Positions 2,032-20,305 of a DNA stretch of 20,305 nucleotides are shown here, one piece after another. Source of the stretch: Microcystis aeruginosa W13-11 (GTDB taxonomy: Bacteria > Cyanobacteriota > Cyanobacteriia > Cyanobacteriales > Microcystaceae); NCBI GenBank assembly GCA_009995705.1, contig JAADBR010000072.1:1-20305 (forward strand), in the 5' to 3' direction. The notes below the pieces were generated by a model. It saw nothing but the letters and a program-made list of their open reading frames with translations, made no database searches and was not told the DNA's origin. The number at the start of each line of letters is the position of its first letter. The first letter of the stretch is position 1. The position numbers and the translations under genes were made by a program.

Positions 2032-3441
2032 TCAAGGGGGTTCTATGGGGGGACTAATTTGATGAGATAGTTTCCAAGTCCGGCTGATATCATGTAACCT
2101 TCGCAGTCCCAACCAAATAGTTTTAACACCTGGTTCACCGTCGCCTTTTCTACCTAAAAACCCCCCAAGAGAAGCAATCATTCTGACTGCTTCCCTAAAG
2201 GAGGGCGGCTTTTCAGGTGGCGGACTCTTTTTATGAATAGTGGCACACAAAGATTGCCATTCATGTTCTTCTAAAAAACTTTCACAACTCTCCTCTCCGT
2301 GTAAGCGTGCTTGATAAGTTAACCAAAGTAATCTCCAAGCTACAATTGAATAGGTAGCTAAGGCCATCTCAATTCTCCGACCCGTTTCTAATTGCAGTTT
2401 TTCTAATCCACAACCACTTTTTAAACCAAAATGATAGCGTTCTATCAACCAGTGATAACTATACCAGCGCACGCAGGTTATCGCCGATTCAAGGCTACTA
2501 ATGTCTAGGCTAGTTAAGAGGAGCCAACTGATAGGATTAACTCCGGGATGCGGATTTTCTTCTTCGGCTAAAATCACCTGTAATTTTACCGGTTGACGAG
2601 GGGTCGCCTTGGAATGATGGCTAGGTACTTGTATTTCAAAACTGGCAAATCTAACTGTTAGTTTAGCTAGTCTAGCCTCGTGATTAGGATTGCGTTTTAC
2701 TTGCACATCTAGGCTACCACAGGCTTTTATTTCTCTGATGGTTTGATGTAAATATTTAGTCTCTGGATGCCCTGACCTTTGCTTATCTTCGAGATAGTTA
2801 ACTTTTCGGTTATGAGTTCCTCGGATTAATAAATGAGAGTTAGGACTTCTTGATTGGGCAAATAAATCAAATATGTCTGCTTCACAATCTCCGATTGTTA
2901 CTACTTGAATTTCTTCGGGTATTTGTTGTTGTGTTTCTGACAAAGAATCTAACCATCTTTGACTTTCTTTTTCTTGGGTTTCTCTTTTTTTTCTTTGCTT
3001 GGCAATCCCTAAATTCTTTTCTTCTCTTGCCCAGACATATTGATTAATCAGTCCTAAAGGTATTCCTTGCGCTGACACTCCTAATGTGGTATGAACTTTG
3101 AGCCCAAAGGACGTTTTACAGTCTAGATAACCCATTTCTTTTTTGGCTTTTTGGGTCGTAAAGTCTAAACTTGTTGTGTCTTGCACTGCCAAAACTATTG
3201 GATGTTCTTTGATTCTTTCTACTGTACTTTTGGTCTGGGCGGCAATTATATCTGACGGGTGAAAATAGGGGGAATTCCAAAAGTCATAGGTGGCACTCGC
3301 CGCGGCTAGATTTCCCGAGACTTGTGGCACACTTGTACTAGGTTGGCTGGCCAAGTTTTCTAGGATACTGATTAACCTTTTCTTTCTTCTGCTGTCCCCT
3401 AGGTCTGCATACTGTAATTCTTGGGCTGCCCATTTCTCCAT
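2032..3441 (-). CDS. IS4-family transposase, Tn5-like DDE
   Basis: This transposase catalyses cut-and-paste movement of the surrounding IS. An N-terminal DNA-binding region (WAAQELQYADLGDSRRKKRL and following) resembles the Tn5/IS50 transposase N-terminus. The acidic triad is visible: Asp in VQDTTSLDF, Asp in IGDCEADIFDLF, and Glu in the YSYHWLIERYHFGLKSG signature, which is the Y-(2)-R-(3)-E-(6)-K type of IS4 enzymes. These fall at residues 105, 202 and 351 if counted from a TTG at 3492, or 88, 185 and 334 from the start used here. I chose ATG 3441 because GGAGGT lies about ten bases upstream; the longer frame starts only with TTG and lacks a comparable site. The frame is uninterrupted at 469 residues, so the enzyme may be active. 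Confidence 0.9.
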   Translation of the reverse strand: MEKWAAQELQYADLGDSRRKKRLISILENLASQPSTSVPQVSGNLAAASATYDFWNSPYFHPSDIIAAQTKSTVERIKEHPIVLAVQDTTSLDFTTQKAKKEMGYLDCKTSFGLKVHTTLGVSAQGIPLGLINQYVWAREEKNLGIAKQRKKRETQEKESQRWLDSLSETQQQIPEEIQVVTIGDCEADIFDLFAQSRSPNSHLLIRGTHNRKVNYLEDKQRSGHPETKYLHQTIREIKACGSLDVQVKRNPNHEARLAKLTVRFASFEIQVPSHHSKATPRQPVKLQVILAEEENPHPGVNPISWLLLTSLDISSLESAITCVRWYSYHWLIERYHFGLKSGCGLEKLQLETGRRIEMALATYSIVAWRLLWLTYQARLHGEESCESFLEEHEWQSLCATIHKKSPPPEKPPSFREAVRMIASLGGFLGRKGDGEPGVKTIWLGLRRLHDISRTWKLSHQISPPIEPP

Positions 3442-3525
3442 TTTTTTGCTTACCTCCACCTTAATTCCTTCTTTCAAAACTATACCTATCAATCGTTTCC
3501 CCTTTTTTTAAGTTTCTTCTCTTTT

Positions 3526-5352: not shown

Positions 5353-5938
5353 ATGCTCGCAACTGTAATCCAAGACTTGATAAAAAAACAACGCCCCTAC
5401 TACCACCCTCAAGGGGATTACATCAAAGGAATTAATATCCGGCGCACAACGTTGTTTGAGAGTCATGCAGAACTTTGGCGTAGTGGTTTGTGCCGATGCG
5501 GTAGGCTTAGGAAAAACCCGCCTTGCTGCTGCGGTAACAAAACTCTACCTAGAAGGAAATCCTCAAACTAAAATTGCCATTATTGCTGCCAAAAAACTCC
5601 ACCCGAACTGGGGGAGAGAAATGGCAGAATTAGGATTGATCGCCAAGAAACACTACGAACTCTACAATAAAAACCTAATGAGTCGTGGCGGCGATCGCTT
5701 TTATGATGAATTTACCCGCCATGGGGGGGCGGCAGATTTAGTCATCATCGATGAAGCCTCGGAATTACCTACCAGTGTAGTCGCTTTAACTCTCGATTAC
5801 TTTGACCCTAATGGTCAACCAATTCCCGAACAAAATCAACTAATTTATTGGAACGATCTAAGCAGAGAAAATGATGGTTTGGGAGTGGCAATCGCCACAG
5901 CTTTTAAAACCCCTCAAGTCAGCCAGATTGTCCCCTGA
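5353..5938 (+). pseudogene. SNF2/DEAD-type helicase remnant with frameshift and probable internal deletion
   Basis: ATG 5353 opens a frame with QDLIKKQRPYYHPQGDYIKG. Around 5400-5440 the coherent sequence moves to the frame that reads GAQRCLRVMQNFGVVVCADA and on into VGLGKT, the helicase Walker A motif. Walker B/motif II follows as VIIDEAS. Superfamily 2 helicases of this size normally carry several hundred more residues before the end. Here DEASEL is followed at once by LTLDYFDPNGQPIPEQNQL and a stop at 5936-5938, which looks like a C-terminal segment joined by deletion. It may be part of the same lost restriction system as the methylase remnants. It should not be functional. Confidence 0.6.
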
Positions 5939-13997: not shown

Positions 13998-14027
13998 TTG
14001 TGTATTGTCGAAGCGTTTACTTATAAT
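13998..14027 (+). promoter_or_regulatory. Candidate sigma70-type promoter of ndhH
   Basis: A perfect -10 hexamer TATAAT (14022-14027) lies 18 bp after TTGTGT (13998-14003). Transcription would start near 14034, about 30 bases before ATG 14064. This also argues against the longer open frame that begins at 13998. Confidence 0.5.
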
Positions 14028-14063
14028 AACTTTAAAAAGATTTTCGGGATCATCGGTAGCCCT

Positions 14064-15248
14064 ATGGCAAAAATTGAAACGAGAACAGAACCCATGGTTT
14101 TAAACATGGGACCCCATCACCCTTCGATGCACGGAGTTTTGCGCTTAATCGTCACCCTTGACGGGGAAGACGTGATTGACTGCGAACCCGTAATCGGTTA
14201 TCTTCATCGGGGCATGGAAAAAATTGCCGAAAATCGCACCAATGTCATGTACGTTCCCTACGTTAGTCGTTGGGATTACGCAGCAGGGATGTTTAATGAG
14301 GCGATTACGGTCAATGCTCCCGAAAAATTAGCCGATATCGCCGTTCCCAAACGAGCGCAATATATCCGGGTGATTATGTTGGAACTCAACCGCATCGCTA
14401 ACCATTTACTCTGGTTAGGCCCGTTTATGGCGGATGTAGGCGCACAAACTCCCTTTTTCTACATTTTCCGGGAACGGGAGATGATTTATGACCTCTGGGA
14501 AGCGGCCACAGGAATGCGGTTAGTTAATAACAATTATTTCCGTATTGGTGGCGTGGCGGTGGATTTACCCTATGGATGGGTGGATAAGTGCGCAGATTTC
14601 TGTGACTATTTTGAGCCAAAAGTGGACGAATACGAGAAATTAATCACTAATAACCCGATTTTCCGCCGTCGTGTTGAAGGGGTAGGCTGCATTACCAGAG
14701 ACGAAGCGATTAACTGGGGTTTATCCGGTCCGATGTTACGCGCTTCTGGGGTGAAATGGGATTTAAGAAAAGTTGACCATTACGAGTGTTACGACGATTT
14801 TGACTGGGAAGTGCATTGGGAAACCGCTGGCGATTGTTTTGCTCGTTATCTGGTGCGGATTCGGGAAATGCGCGAATCAGTGAAAATTATCCGGCAAGCA
14901 CTGAAAGGTTTACCCGGTGGTCCCTACGAAAATCTGGAAGCGAAACGGATGGCAGAAGGGAAAAAATCAGCTTGGAATGATTTTGACTATCAATATATCG
15001 CCAAAAAAGTCGCCCCCACTTTCAAAATCCCTAAAGGTGAACATTATGTGCGTTTGGAAAGTGGTAAAGGGGAATTAGGTATCTTTATCGTCGGTAATGA
15101 TGATGTTTTCCCTTGGCGTTGGAAAATTCGGGCCGCCGATTTTAATAATCTTCAAATTCTGCCTCATATCCTCAAAGGGGTAAAAGTTGCCGATATTATG
15201 GCGATTTTAGGCAGTATTGATATTATTATGGGGTCAGTCGATCGCTAA
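14064..15248 (+). CDS. ndhH: NAD(P)H-quinone oxidoreductase subunit H (NDH-1 49-kDa-type subunit)
   Basis: A peripheral-arm subunit of the thylakoid NDH-1 complex, which moves electrons from ferredoxin to plastoquinone in cyclic flow, respiration and CO2 uptake. From ATG 14064 the protein is 394 residues, the usual NdhH length, beginning [20 protein letters not shown]. The signature GPHHPSMHG is at 16-24 and [12 protein letters not shown] at 45-56; the conserved C-terminus ends [19 protein letters not shown]. The open frame extends 22 codons upstream to a TTG, but that part is unlike the family and overlaps the candidate promoter. It stands alone, as ndhH commonly does in cyanobacteria. There are no lesions. 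Confidence 0.96.
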
Positions 15249-15549: not shown

Positions 15550-15675
15550 AGATTTCGCTCCTTTCGCCTTATGGCTTGTTTTTTGAGGACAAGTAGATTA
15601 GACTGCTTTAAGCAAATGCTGGCAAAAGGGGATCAAAAAGTGGATCAGATGGTAGGTTGACGTTTGAGGAGATTT

Positions 15676-17052
15676 ATGTTAAGGTCTGGCCAAATCAGAT
15701 TATCGGATGAAGATGTAGAAACCCTTCGTAAGGCTAAAGATGCTTATCAGGGAGACTATTCTTGTGCTTCGCAGAAAACAGAGCAAATATTAATAGAAGC
15801 AAGTCGATGGTTACTTGAGGCATTTCTCGAAGAATACCGTAGTCGAACAAATCCTTCCAGTTATACCATTCCATTAAATGTCTTGAAAGCTTGGATGACA
15901 TCATCGCCACAATCCGGAACAACTAAAGAGGTTTTAGAACCAAATAAGAAGAAATTGTACTTACAAAATGAATCTGATTTTAAAGAATTTGAAAATCAGA
16001 AGAAAAGCACATACATTACTCAAAATAAAATAAATAAACCCAGAGTTGAAGATATTAATGATAATTTAATTCATTTAACCTCAGCAGATATTGATGATTT
16101 ATTAGATTCGTCTATTTTAAAGGTAATTGGCATATCTACAGATAGTTTGCGGTTTTGTACTGAAAAAAAATATGGACTGGGAAAAAAAGGGCAAAAAACC
16201 TCTAAACAGTCTTATATTGTTCAAGCTTATTGTGAAGTATTAAAACTAGATTTTGACAGCTTACAATGTTGTCAACTTCCTCAAAACCCAAAAAATCAAC
16301 GAACAAATAATGAGAAGATTTATCGTGTTTTAACAGAATTTAATTACAATAATGTAGTAAATTTTACTGGTTTAATAGCTGCTAAACCTTTACGAGAAGG
16401 CAGTATTTATATTCCCCCTTGTCCTCATCAATATCGTGTTTTGTGTTTGCGTCGTTTAGAAAAACAAATTTTTATCACTAATAATTTGCCCGTTAAACCC
16501 ATTATTTTTAAGTTTCAAGGAGATGGTCAAGAAGAATGGAATAGCTATGATATTCATGAATATTTTCTCAAAAATTCTGAAGGAATTGAAAAATTAAAAG
16601 CTAATAATTTCTGTTTGATTTTTGAAGGAATTGATTGTGCAGACTTTTCCCGTTTAAAAGACATTGATTCGTTTTGGCAAAACTTAACCCAAAAAGCTAG
16701 TAGAATACAAAATAGTCCCATTCCGGGCTTTTTATTAATGATTTGGTTAGATTATGGAAAAAGTAATGATTGGAGAGATAAGGACAAATTATCAGAATTA
16801 AGTCCTATTCATCGCTTACAGATTGACTCTCGCTTTGAACCAGGGTCTTTTCCGGACATTATTCCTACTTTTGCTCAACAACTTCAGTTGGGTTGCGACT
16901 TACAGGATGAAACCACAGACTTATTTAAATCTACCGTGCAGGAATTATGGGAAAATAGCAATCAAGGCAACATAGAAGACACACTGAAAGCTTTTTATCA
17001 ACAATTTAAAGGACAATTATCGAGGGAAAATAGATGGCTAAACTATCCTTAA
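15676..17052 (+). CDS. Inactive STAND-like NTPase protein of a MoxR-vWA ternary system
   Basis: A 458-residue protein, first gene of the operon. ATG 15676 is chosen because GAGGAG ends five bases upstream; the open frame reaches TTG 15664. Regions in order: an N-terminal helical part (1-60, LSDEDVETLRKAKDAYQG); a polar, low-complexity linker (75-130); a helix-turn-helix-like segment (about 140-205, GISTDSLRFCTEKKYGLGKK, YIVQAYCEVLKLDFDSL); and a region laid out like a STAND NTPase core (from about 216). Where a P-loop is expected it reads GSIYIPPCPHQYRVLCLRRL, with no GxxxxGK[ST]. Downstream FCLIFEGID and GFLLMIWLDYG look like remnant core strands. I infer a non-hydrolysing sensor or scaffold. 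It overlaps the AAA+ gene by 19 bp. The family call is pattern recognition from the sequence. Confidence 0.55.
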   Translation: MLRSGQIRLSDEDVETLRKAKDAYQGDYSCASQKTEQILIEASRWLLEAFLEEYRSRTNPSSYTIPLNVLKAWMTSSPQSGTTKEVLEPNKKKLYLQNESDFKEFENQKKSTYITQNKINKPRVEDINDNLIHLTSADIDDLLDSSILKVIGISTDSLRFCTEKKYGLGKKGQKTSKQSYIVQAYCEVLKLDFDSLQCCQLPQNPKNQRTNNEKIYRVLTEFNYNNVVNFTGLIAAKPLREGSIYIPPCPHQYRVLCLRRLEKQIFITNNLPVKPIIFKFQGDGQEEWNSYDIHEYFLKNSEGIEKLKANNFCLIFEGIDCADFSRLKDIDSFWQNLTQKASRIQNSPIPGFLLMIWLDYGKSNDWRDKDKLSELSPIHRLQIDSRFEPGSFPDIIPTFAQQLQLGCDLQDETTDLFKSTVQELWENSNQGNIEDTLKAFYQQFKGQLSRENRWLNYP

Positions 17053-18005
17053 CCTACACGGGAAAAATTCAACCAAAATCGGGACTTTATTATGAACCGA
17101 TTCAACAAAAAATTTATCCCTATGACGCGGGTGATGAGTTAATAGAAGTTGTTAACTTGGCTATTGAATTGGGAATGCCTTTGTTACTGGAAGGTGAGCC
17201 GGGATGTGGCAAAAGTCGTCTAGCTCATGCCTTAGTTCATGAATTTAATTATCTCCCGGAAAATAATCCTATAAAATATTATGAGTGGATAGTTCAATCC
17301 ACAAGTAAAGCGGAAGATAGTCTCTATCAATATGATTATATTGGCCGTTTACAAGCTGCTCAAATTAGCGGAATTTTAAGTCAAAAAGGAACAGAAGAAT
17401 CTTCGTCTGAGCAAAAAAATCCAGCTATTTCAAAAGATTGGGTTAATTTACAAGCCTTGGGTAAAGCATTTGAACAAAGTCAAGATAAGCAAGAACAATC
17501 GGTAGTATTAATTGATGAAATAGATAAAGCAGATCGAGATTTTCCTAATGATTTACTTTTAGCCATTGAATCTCGTCGTTTTTTTATTAAAGAAACAGGA
17601 GAACCAATTAAAGCAAATGAGCAAGCTTTTCCTCTGATTATTATTACCAGTAATCAAGAAAAAAACTTACCCAATGCTTTTCTGAGACGTTGCATTTATC
17701 ACTATATTGAGCTTCCCAACCAAGAAAGATTAAGAAAAATATTAACTGAACGGTTTACCGACGCTGAACAAGAGGTTATCATCAAAGCAGTGGACCGTTT
17801 TCAGGAAGTGAGAACATCACAAGACGAGACTAAATCTGAAGGAGAAAAAAAAGTTAGCACAAGTGAATTAATAGCCTGGTTTAAATCGTTACTCAAGTAC
17901 AAACCTGAAGAAATTATCGCCAAATTAAACGAGGACAAATTACCCCACGCTAGTATTTTACTAAAAAGCCGTACTGATTTACAAGATTATGGAACAAGAG
18001 GTTAA
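17034..18005 (+). CDS. MoxR-type AAA+ ATPase
   Basis: A 323-residue AAA+ ATPase of the MoxR group, which usually works with a vWA-domain partner to remodel or activate a target protein. Walker A GEPGCGKS is at 54-61, Walker B VVLIDEIDKA at 157-166, sensor 1 Asn at 207 in ITSNQEK, and paired arginines (218-219) in the arginine-finger region AFLRRC. A long insert between Walker A and B (about 115-155) is polar and variable. All catalytic residues are present, so it should hydrolyse ATP, unlike its upstream neighbour. The start ATG 17034 lies inside the end of the upstream gene with GAGGGA before it, and the stop is 8 bp from the next start, which indicates translational coupling in one operon. 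Confidence 0.88.
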   Translation: MAKLSLTYTGKIQPKSGLYYEPIQQKIYPYDAGDELIEVVNLAIELGMPLLLEGEPGCGKSRLAHALVHEFNYLPENNPIKYYEWIVQSTSKAEDSLYQYDYIGRLQAAQISGILSQKGTEESSSEQKNPAISKDWVNLQALGKAFEQSQDKQEQSVVLIDEIDKADRDFPNDLLLAIESRRFFIKETGEPIKANEQAFPLIIITSNQEKNLPNAFLRRCIYHYIELPNQERLRKILTERFTDAEQEVIIKAVDRFQEVRTSQDETKSEGEKKVSTSELIAWFKSLLKYKPEEIIAKLNEDKLPHASILLKSRTDLQDYGTRG

Positions 18006-18013
18006 AAGAGCCA

Positions 18014-20305
18014 ATGACATCCCCCCTACTTGACCTATTTTATCAACTCAGAAATGAAGAAGGATTTCCGCTGTCTATTGAACAATATTATCGGGTGGAA
18101 AATTACCTGATTCAAAAACTCGCTAATGATTCTGATATTGCTATTCAAGAGAATCCCAACTTAGAGAATCCTAAAATTAAACTTCTTTGTCAAGCTTTAT
18201 GGGTTAAATCTCCAGAAGAAAAACAAAAGTTTGATCAGGCCTGGACAGAGATGCTACAATTCCAACCGGAAATAAATATAGAAATACCCAAAAAAACGCC
18301 TATTCGCCATCCAGAAGAATCGATTAGCAAAATAATAGACCCGATGGATGATAGGGAATCTCCCTCATTAGCATTTATTACCCCTTCTGGGGATGCACCT
18401 TTACCTCCTGAGACTCCATTTCCACAAATTGCCACAGCTATTGAAAAGCGAAAAAAAATCACCTCCCTAGATAATCCTGATTATTATCCTATTGGTATCG
18501 CTAAATTACAAGAAAGTTGGCAGCAACTGCGTCCATTACCCCTAGAAAGTCCTCGACAGACTTGGGATCTAAAAGCTACGGTGATTGCAACAGCTAAACA
18601 AGGTTTTTTTGACCAAATAATTTACCAAAAGAAACAACTTTATCGGCGAGAAATTATTATTTTTATTGATTGTTCTGACTCCATGATTCCCTTTGCGGGA
18701 TTTGGTCGGATAATGAAACAAACCTGGGAAAATGTCCCCCATTTTTACTTTGATAATCTGATTAGAGAGGAGGTTTTACGACAAGAAAACGGTTGGGAAA
18801 GTCAATCTTTAACCAAAGTTCTCTCTAATTATTCTCCTGAAGTAACCAGTTGTTTAATCCTTAGTGATGCGGGTGCTGCTAGAAAACGTTATGTAGAAGA
18901 GCGCTTGAGCGCAACAGAAACCCTTATCCGACGATTTAGCCGAAGATTTAGCCGAGTCGCATGGTTAAACCCCTTACCCTATCATCGATGGTATGGGACA
19001 ACTGCGATCGATATTGCTGATTTAGCTGAAGATATACCCAATTTTTCCATGTTTGAGCTAACCACAGAGGATTGGGAAAACTTAATAACATGGCTAAAAG
19101 AAGAACCTATCCCACCCCGTCATTTTCAATTTGATCTCGCTCAATTTCAACAAGGGGATAATTGGGATGAGGATGAAGATTTTTTTAGCGCAGAAAGCTG
19201 TTTAAGATTATTTGAAAAAGAAAACGAACTAAACACCAGAGAACTGGCGAAAAGAGCCGCCTTTCCCCTTAGTTTATCCCCTAATTTACTTTATTATCTG
19301 CGTCAACATCAAGATAAAAATAATCAATCTCCTTGGTATGCGATCGCTGACATTTTACTCTCCAGTTTAGTCCGCAAAATAGATCGAGAACTCTATGAAA
19401 TGTCCCCCGATATTCGTAAACTACTATTAAAAAAATTAACCCCAGAGGAACTCAAATCTCTGGCCTATCAGTTACAAACCTATATTCAGGAACAAATCGG
19501 TGATCGTTGCTCAAAATCAGTTTATTGGCAAAATCAACAATGGTTAGCTCTTGCCTACCTAAAACCTAGTCAAGCGGTTAATGAAATCAAACAGTTACTA
19601 GCAGAAGCTATCAAAAATAATAACCGAGTGCGTCTTGTTAGATTGACAGCTTTATTAGAGAATCTATCCGCTGCTTTAGCCGATTATGAACCCTTGTTAT
19701 TGCTTAAAGAACCGATTGCCGCCTATTCTAGAGGGGATTTAAGCCAGGAAGACGAACAAACCCGACAAAAACATTTAATAGACAAAGTAGCAGATATTGT
19801 TCCCTACAATGAAAACCTTTTCCTTTTTACCGCAGAAACGGTATTGGTTAATGAAAAAGGCCAAGTTATCGAGAGGAAACCTGTTAAAGCCTATTTTTAC
19901 GATGAAAACCTTGCAGAAGTTGGCAACCGGAAAAAAGCTCATAACTATATCCCTATGATGTATATTCCCCAAGGAGAATTCTGGATGGGAACGGAAGATG
20001 AGGAAATCGAAAGACTGGTTAAAAGATTTGATTGGGACGGATATAGAAGGGAAGGACCACAACACCTAGTCAAAGTCCCCGCTTTCTACATGAGTCAAAC
20101 CCCGATTACCCAGGCCCAGTGGAGAGCAGTTGCCTCCCGCACGGATTTAAAAGTAGGACGAAATCTTAACCCTGCTCCCTCCCACTTTAAAGATCCCCCC
20201 AAACCCTCCTTAGAAAGGGAGGCTTCCGATTCCCCCCCTTTTGAAGGTGCTAGGGGGGGATCTCCCACGCGCTGGGATAGACCCGTAGAACGAGTCAACT
20301 GGTAT
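18014..20305 (+). CDS. vWA domain protein with C-terminal FGE-sulfatase-like domain (runs off window)
   Basis: An open frame of 764 codons continues past the window end. The N-terminal 180 residues are helical then proline-rich. A von Willebrand A domain begins near 190: EIIIFIDCSDSMIPF gives an intact MIDAS DxSxS (Asp219, Ser221, Ser223), followed by CLILSDAG and RVAWLNPLP. Residues about 365-640 are a mostly helical region of unknown family with repeated apolar blocks. From about 645, YIPMMYIPQGEFWMGTEDEE starts a formylglycine-generating-enzyme (SUMF1)-like domain, continuing FYMSQTPITQAQWRAVA and RPVERVNWY. Residues 727-750 are an inserted repeat inside that domain. The vWA part should bind the MoxR partner; the FGE-like part may be an effector or a binding module. 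Start ATG 18014 follows the AAA+ stop by 8 bp. Confidence 0.82.
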   Translation, partial: MTSPLLDLFYQLRNEEGFPLSIEQYYRVENYLIQKLANDSDIAIQENPNLENPKIKLLCQALWVKSPEEKQKFDQAWTEMLQFQPEINIEIPKKTPIRHPEESISKIIDPMDDRESPSLAFITPSGDAPLPPETPFPQIATAIEKRKKITSLDNPDYYPIGIAKLQESWQQLRPLPLESPRQTWDLKATVIATAKQGFFDQIIYQKKQLYRREIIIFIDCSDSMIPFAGFGRIMKQTWENVPHFYFDNLIREEVLRQENGWESQSLTKVLSNYSPEVTSCLILSDAGAARKRYVEERLSATETLIRRFSRRFSRVAWLNPLPYHRWYGTTAIDIADLAEDIPNFSMFELTTEDWENLITWLKEEPIPPRHFQFDLAQFQQGDNWDEDEDFFSAESCLRLFEKENELNTRELAKRAAFPLSLSPNLLYYLRQHQDKNNQSPWYAIADILLSSLVRKIDRELYEMSPDIRKLLLKKLTPEELKSLAYQLQTYIQEQIGDRCSKSVYWQNQQWLALAYLKPSQAVNEIKQLLAEAIKNNNRVRLVRLTALLENLSAALADYEPLLLLKEPIAAYSRGDLSQEDEQTRQKHLIDKVADIVPYNENLFLFTAETVLVNEKGQVIERKPVKAYFYDENLAEVGNRKKAHNYIPMMYIPQGEFWMGTEDEEIERLVKRFDWDGYRREGPQHLVKVPAFYMSQTPITQAQWRAVASRTDLKVGRNLNPAPSHFKDPPKPSLEREASDSPPFEGARGGSPTRWDRPVERVNWY
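20192..20263. repeat. 72-nt palindromic repeat inserted in frame in the FGE-like domain
   Basis: Terminal inverted GATCCCCCC (20192-20200) and GGGGGGATC (20254-20262) bound the element. Inside are CCTCC with GGAGG, and C7 (20232-20238) with G7 (20253-20259). It encodes 24 residues (727-750) that begin DPPKPSLERE and end GARGGS. The composition is unlike the surrounding gene but typical of a cyanobacterial intergenic repeat whose other frame reads PPLAPSKGG. The length is a multiple of three, so the frame is kept. Confidence 0.75.

Follow-up and report, generated by a model that had tools for sequence, protein, structure and literature searches.

A Microcystis MoxR-vWA operon with a divergent iSTAND protein and a probable DGR-diversified sensor domain

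Introduction

At the end of a 20,305-nucleotide stretch of Microcystis aeruginosa W13-11 DNA (contig JAADBR010000072.1, positions 1 to 20,305; here referred to as the window), three tightly packed genes raise the question of what system they form and which of its parts senses and which acts. All on the + strand, they encode a divergent protein of 458 residues (gene 1, 15676-17052, from its ATG), a MoxR-type AAA+ ATPase of 323 residues (gene 2, 17034-18005) and a vWA-linker-FGE protein that is still open at the window end (gene 3, 18014-20305). The initial annotation, made from the letters and open reading frames (ORFs) alone, placed the trio among the MoxR-vWA ternary conflict systems, with the FGE-like domain as output and a dead STAND-like protein as sensor. 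The class assignment stands: the operon belongs to the iSTAND ternary systems described by Kaur et al. 2020 (eLife, PMC7159879), with which it shares an iSTAND third component, a MoxR protein and a vWA protein that carries a C-terminal FGS/FGE domain through a linker. For the division of labor we favor the opposite polarity. With a probability of roughly two in three, this is a conflict system in which the gene 3 FGE (C-type-lectin-fold) domain is a ligand sensor diversified by a diversity-generating retroelement (DGR), and the domain is probably a detector rather than a weapon.

Results

The trio recurs beyond Microcystis

To place the operon, we surveyed the 40 best of 54 MoxR places other than four Microcystis orthologues; 14 weaker places lay outside the survey. 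A vWA gene directly follows MoxR in 39 of the 40 loci, and the contig of L127 is cut downstream, at the vWA position. The vWA profile matched this next gene in 34 loci plus L140; in L141-L144 the match was confined to the family's N-terminal block. The gene upstream of MoxR encodes an iSTAND protein in 34 of the 38 loci intact there (the contigs of L121 and L141 are cut upstream), and the third component of the other four (L131, L134, L135 and L138) was not assigned to iSTAND. A 156-residue fragment in L121 joined the iterated profile, by our reading via its caspase-like part, and was left out of the iSTAND count. The adjacency of the three homologues, on which the initial annotation had let its reading depend, is therefore the rule in these loci. 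An FGE domain lies downstream in 23 of the 40, either in one chain with vWA, which is the window's arrangement, or, more commonly, on a separate linker-FGE gene.

Within the operon, genes 1 and 2 overlap by 19 bp and genes 2 and 3 are separated by 8 bp, as first annotated; the ORF list also offers a TTG start for gene 1 at 15664. The operon was present in 6 of the 12 Microcystis genomes examined. Across these six, gene 2 is 91-95% identical and gene 1 is 78-89% identical, the latter being full length in five and broken in G001 into two pieces that sit on separate contigs, each reported to contain a stop. A contig search with gene 1 gave five closest named loci, all from Microcystis (four full length at 81-89% identity, one partial at 79%). 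A protein search returned 118 relatives including the window's own, of which 117 were 77-100% identical and one was distant at 33%; wherever the source names an organism for the 117 close relatives, it is Microcystis. Because genes 1 and 2 are kept in six Microcystis genomes and the gene order recurs in other genera, the three ORFs are not a product of chance.

Gene 1 is a divergent inactive STAND relative

Direct scans of gene 1 came back empty from Pfam and PADLOC, NCBIfam gave nothing above noise (E 0.12), and a PDB sequence search with its profile reached a best E of 0.61. The wider family was reached through the MoxR loci and an iterated profile. The Pfam iSTAND model matches 30 of its 38 members (E up to 0.1), and the window protein, being too divergent, is not among them; an hhalign comparison of gene 1 with the other third components gave 97.7. 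An AlphaFold2 model built on the 38 sequences (pLDDT 82.8), which supersedes one built on 12 (pLDDT 66.5), was placed as AAA+ by fold searches and resembles ORC/RFC proteins, which bind DNA. Foldseek TM-scores by query were low (0.18-0.31) because only the C-terminal half is common to the fold matches; the fold assignment accordingly rests on that half, and residues 1-200 were barely probed.

Two parts can be distinguished in the protein, a mostly helical N-terminal part (residues 1-200) with a helix-turn-helix-like stretch, recognized by eye and from weak matches in relatives, and an AAA+/STAND-like module (residues about 204-450). At the strand-1 turn of this module, where a P-loop would be expected, gene 1 carries the eroded sequence SIYIPPCPHQYR (16402-16437, + strand). 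GQ occupies this position in 16 of the 38 family members and none of the 38 has a classic Walker A; a stray GKS at residue 361 lies outside the P-loop position. Profile-profile comparison and fold both gave iSTAND/AAA+ and so rejected membership in an unrelated family. Gene 1 is thus a divergent inactive STAND relative without a nucleoside triphosphate-binding motif, as the initial annotation had read from its layout. No VMAP model matched gene 1 and none was among the 25 of 71 families listed for the 38 members, the Pfam content for VMAP-C being unchecked.

Genes 2 and 3 encode an intact MoxR ATPase and a vWA-FGE protein

The motifs first reported for genes 2 and 3 are all in place. Gene 2 has a Walker A motif, GEPGCGKS (17193-17216, + strand), and a Walker B motif, VVLIDEID (17502-17525, + strand). 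There is no tryptophan before its Walker A, so the VMAP-type N-terminal extension, defined by the motifs WxhapG and PsWRxa (PMC7159879), is not present. The MadB and MadC families of the MADS anti-phage system likewise pair an AAA+ ATPase with a VWA partner. Gene 2 reached 77.8 bits against MadB (NCBIfam), far below the curated cut-off of 475, and gene 3 only E 0.066 against MadC. We therefore rejected gene 2 as a MadB.

Gene 3 carries the vWA metal ion-dependent adhesion site motif FIDCSDSM (18662-18685, + strand). VWA_CoxE scored 21.4 bits on the window protein, below the Pfam cut-off of 26.4, and 28.9 bits on the separate vWA gene of L016. From residue 648 the protein matches FGE-sulfatase with 33.3 bits (cut-off 23.3), and the complete orthologue in L009 does so with 184. 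L009, the nearest orthologue fetched (937 residues), is 94.5% identical to gene 3 over the window's part, and the six orthologue proteins are about 80-85% identical to L009. The window holds the first part of the FGE/C-type-lectin-fold domain (19955-20305, + strand), and the hypervariable stretch of the orthologues lies beyond its edge. Within this part is a 72-bp in-frame insert (20195-20266, + strand), C-rich and then G-rich, which is also present in gene 3 of L009 and L014 and absent from L010-L013; similar pieces occur in L009, L014, L048, L106 and L114.

The FGE domain of the orthologues carries a DGR-type hypervariable stretch

In the six Microcystis orthologues, the stretch that follows the conserved RGGSW is wholly different from one protein to the next and is made of NNC codons. 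Across 78 full-length gene 3 proteins, mean entropy was 2.01 bits in this stretch and 0.20 elsewhere. In 77 of the 79 proteins scored (of 81), RGGSW is followed by Y, F, C or S, the outcome expected of a TAC codon mutated at its A. A stricter pattern extracted 69 variable regions from the 81 proteins, 59 of them distinct. In the segment after GGSW, position W+2 is variable (C in 3 of the same 79 orthologues) and W+7 is C in 76, the window stopping short of both. We take these two positions, mapped by hand, to correspond to the catalytic cysteine pair of formylglycine-generating enzyme; on that mapping the pair is lost in the orthologues, and a working enzyme of this kind was rejected.

Candidate DGR templates adjoin reverse transcriptase genes in four Microcystis genomes (G003, G006, G007 and G011). 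Both cassettes that we scanned (G003 and G011) gave bAvd and RVT_1 matches. Three of the four reverse transcriptases contain IGNLTSQ, an instance of the [ILV]GxxxSQ motif typical of DGR reverse transcriptases. We compared seven variable regions with their templates, taking for each locus the template with the fewest non-adenine differences. All 18 differences in L011 and 19 of 20 in L009 fall at template adenines. The bias is weaker in L012 (16/18), L010 (18/22), L014 (18/23), L013 (14/20) and L016 (14/24). Summed over the seven, 117 of 145 differences are at adenines, against an adenine share of about 0.3, a count that the choice of template nudges upward. The C-terminus of the orthologous FGE domains is, by these sequence criteria, a DGR-type hypervariable and presumptive binding surface.

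Two template classes meet at this locus: L009 and L011, whose ending is GFRVACVSPGL, match the template of G003, and L010, L012, L013 and L014 fit the G007/G011 class. Since both occur at a single locus, the pattern suggests rewriting or cassette exchange in trans at gene 3. The variable regions of five gene 3 proteins (P0131, P0144, P0152, P0154 and P0175) are mosaics with the same 3' half (RFHYLRRGSFYSYL) and differing 5' halves, as if partial tracts had been exchanged.

DGR genes accompany iSTAND systems in other loci

Avd and a DGR reverse transcriptase lie directly downstream in 7 of the 40 survey loci (L108, L110, L126, L130, L139, L140 and L142), and one of the two in three more (L106, as a 163-residue piece, L124 and L125). 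The third components of all seven loci with both genes match Pfam iSTAND above its cut-off. The literature on such links is cited here from excerpts. Kaur et al. 2020 tie DGRs by name to VMAP rather than iSTAND and report them in about 80% of the VMAP systems of cyanobacteria and gammaproteobacteria (PMC7159879), whereas here DGR-type variability and, at sister loci, Avd and reverse transcriptase accompany iSTAND. In the DGR-linked systems of Thiohalocapsa and cyanobacteria (PMC10907252), which are proposed to be antigen sensors, MoxR likewise accompanies a vWA-CLec target that has a DGR variable region, and rewriting in trans is assumed for some of these targets; the term iSTAND does not occur in the main text of that paper, and a conserved VMAP domain is described for only a subset of the cyanobacterial loci, in contrast to the iSTAND third component of our seven. 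The excerpts also describe these iSTAND systems as concentrated in cyanobacteria among other groups, with FGS as the commonest vWA-linked domain at about 22% (PMC7159879). Literature searches, covering listings and passages, found no published account of a DGR-linked iSTAND system or of Microcystis DGR targets. For Microcystis strain NIES-843, only group II intron reverse transcriptases are reported in the excerpt of PMC8934634, and in that of PMC7517822, a paper about DGRs in cyanobacteria, Microcystis comes up only in connection with orthocaspases. The iSTAND MoxR-vWA class is thus already published, and the DGR link is the unusual addition.

Discussion

Which end of the system senses

Two lines of evidence favor the FGE domain as sensor and the iSTAND side as output: the hypervariability sits on gene 3, and the iSTAND proteins of sister systems carry enzyme or adaptor domains (caspase, trypsin, EAD and death-like). 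In the mechanism that we propose, the variable FGE surface would bind an invader-derived or altered-self molecule, and the vWA part would relay this binding to the AAA+ ring of MoxR. The ring would then remodel and release the catalytically dead iSTAND protein, whose N-terminal module would recruit, or itself be, the output: the cell would stop growing or die, and the colony would be protected. Strains that lack a DGR reverse transcriptase would carry a fixed receptor allele, and in those with a DGR elsewhere in the genome the receptor would be rewritten in trans.

The published proposal, whose polarity the initial annotation shares, runs the other way: the FGE domain is a hypervariable effector that grips and neutralizes the invader, sensing, possibly of nucleic acid, falls to the iSTAND protein, and the threshold is set by MoxR-vWA. 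We consider this polarity unlikely. The ORC/RFC resemblance of gene 1 would suit it, as would the lack of an enzymatic effector on gene 1 and the FGE domain being the only obviously variable module. It is also what the literature on these systems puts forward (PMC7159879, where FGS is the effector, and PMC8195603). Against it stand the caspase and trypsin domains on the iSTAND side of sister systems, which is where such domains would belong if that side were the output. Dore et al. 2024 (PNAS), moreover, argue for vWA-CLec as sensor and the third component as output in the DGR-linked versions (PMC10907252), and the Kaur group's own paper of 2021 likewise allows FGS to bind invader molecules (PMC8195603).

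A variable domain could instead mark or read strain identity within Microcystis colonies rather than recognize phage. The number of distinct variable regions would fit such kin recognition, and many alleles may be fixed, given that four of the six gene-3-bearing genomes yielded no full-length DGR reverse transcriptase. We regard it as improbable: simple reading of gene 3, with no predictor run, brought up neither a secretion signal nor a membrane anchor, and a caspase gene or an HmaC gene occupies the same site in other strains. The least probable alternative, a housekeeping chaperone in which MoxR-vWA matures or metal-loads a partner, as in NorQ-NorD or RavA-ViaA, and FGE binds the substrate, can draw on MoxR-vWA pairs known for such roles, and is hard to square with an operon found in half of the genomes at a variable site, a hypervariable FGE domain, DGR genes at seven survey loci and caspase or trypsin fusions in relatives.

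Several observations weigh against the operon being a conflict system with a DGR-diversified FGE sensor. The evidence for the variable region comes from orthologues only, as the window ends inside gene 3, upstream of that stretch. The choice of template leans toward adenines, and non-adenine differences nonetheless occur in six of the seven loci (L009, 1/20; L010, 4/22; L012, 2/18; L013, 6/20; L014, 5/23; L016, 10/24), with gaps in the template alignments of L010, L012, L013 and L014. The best template for L009 and L011 was found in G003, while their own genomes, G007 and G011, carry a reverse transcriptase and template of the other class. Only two of the six gene-3-bearing Microcystis genomes have a full-length DGR reverse transcriptase, so much of the gene 3 diversity may be old. 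On the output side, gene 1 has neither a Pfam match nor a recognized effector or adaptor in the Pfam and PADLOC scans, and a search with its profile by itself hit just 7 of 386 cyanobacterial genomes. In the 12 Microcystis genomes the first 200 residues of gene 1 occur only in gene 1 itself, which is present in 6, and this leaves recruitment of an effector by an adaptor unsupported in Microcystis. Finally, no defense assay for this class of system was found in the excerpts searched. In this respect the initial annotation, which knew of no experimental test, remains right as to function. At a related Nostoc punctiforme locus (around Npun_F4885-F4892), MoxR, VWA and DGR target genes are reported to lie close together, with several co-expressed and adenine-specific mutation detected at a low level (PMC12691664). 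That locus has a complete DGR on site in a filamentous species, in contrast to the fetched flanks of the Microcystis gene 3 loci, where no Avd or reverse transcriptase was seen.

Should the DGR-diversified sensor reading hold, DGR-driven sensor diversification would extend to the iSTAND branch of MoxR-vWA systems, and a bloom-forming colonial cyanobacterium would become a test bed. The reading also bears on the two published polarities, predicting enzymes and adaptors on the iSTAND side and hypervariability on the vWA side.

Variable regions and the rewriting machinery in Microcystis genomes

Matches to the variable-region pattern (templates included, at most 3 mismatches) occur in all 12 Microcystis genomes, at 5-15 places each, and at 3 in G014; the reversed control pattern gave none. 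A full-length DGR reverse transcriptase was found in the four template-bearing genomes and shorter pieces in G004 (a 65-residue remnant), G006 and G011. In the two gene-3-bearing genomes with a full-length enzyme, the template adjoins it and differs in class from the gene 3 region. The G006 reverse transcriptase lies on a 43.6-kb contig. A tentative possibility, and one we would not lean on, is that the repertoire and the rewriting machine are uncoupled: copies of variable regions from the same DGR family are scattered through every genome examined, and the reverse transcriptase, Avd and template would be gained and lost, in one case with a contig of plasmid size. On its arrival a DGR would then act in trans on many conflict sensors already resident, this iSTAND system among them, rewriting them, swapping their cassettes between template classes and leaving frozen receptors behind. 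As a separate observation, a CHAT-NB-ARC/NACHT-FGE gene in G007 (L069:4933-7983, - strand) adjoins a DGR cassette and has its own variable region.

Genomic site and neighboring genes

In all six operon-bearing genomes the operon lies after ndhH. In G006 this site is taken by a caspase gene together with a variable FGE in a different frame, in G010 by an HmaC gene (1091 bits, PADLOC) and in G003 and G009 by other genes; it is rearranged in G002, and the contig ends there in G005. A plasmid origin of the operon was unsupported, given this constant site and no megablast match in 72,556 plasmid records. The region (window 13998-15248 and the stretch after it; L165, L166, L168, L169 and L170) has the look of a small hot spot for conflict genes. 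Farther left of the operon, reading of the ORF list alone picked out a transposase-like ORF (2032-3492, - strand) and a short helicase-like fragment (5456-5938, + strand).

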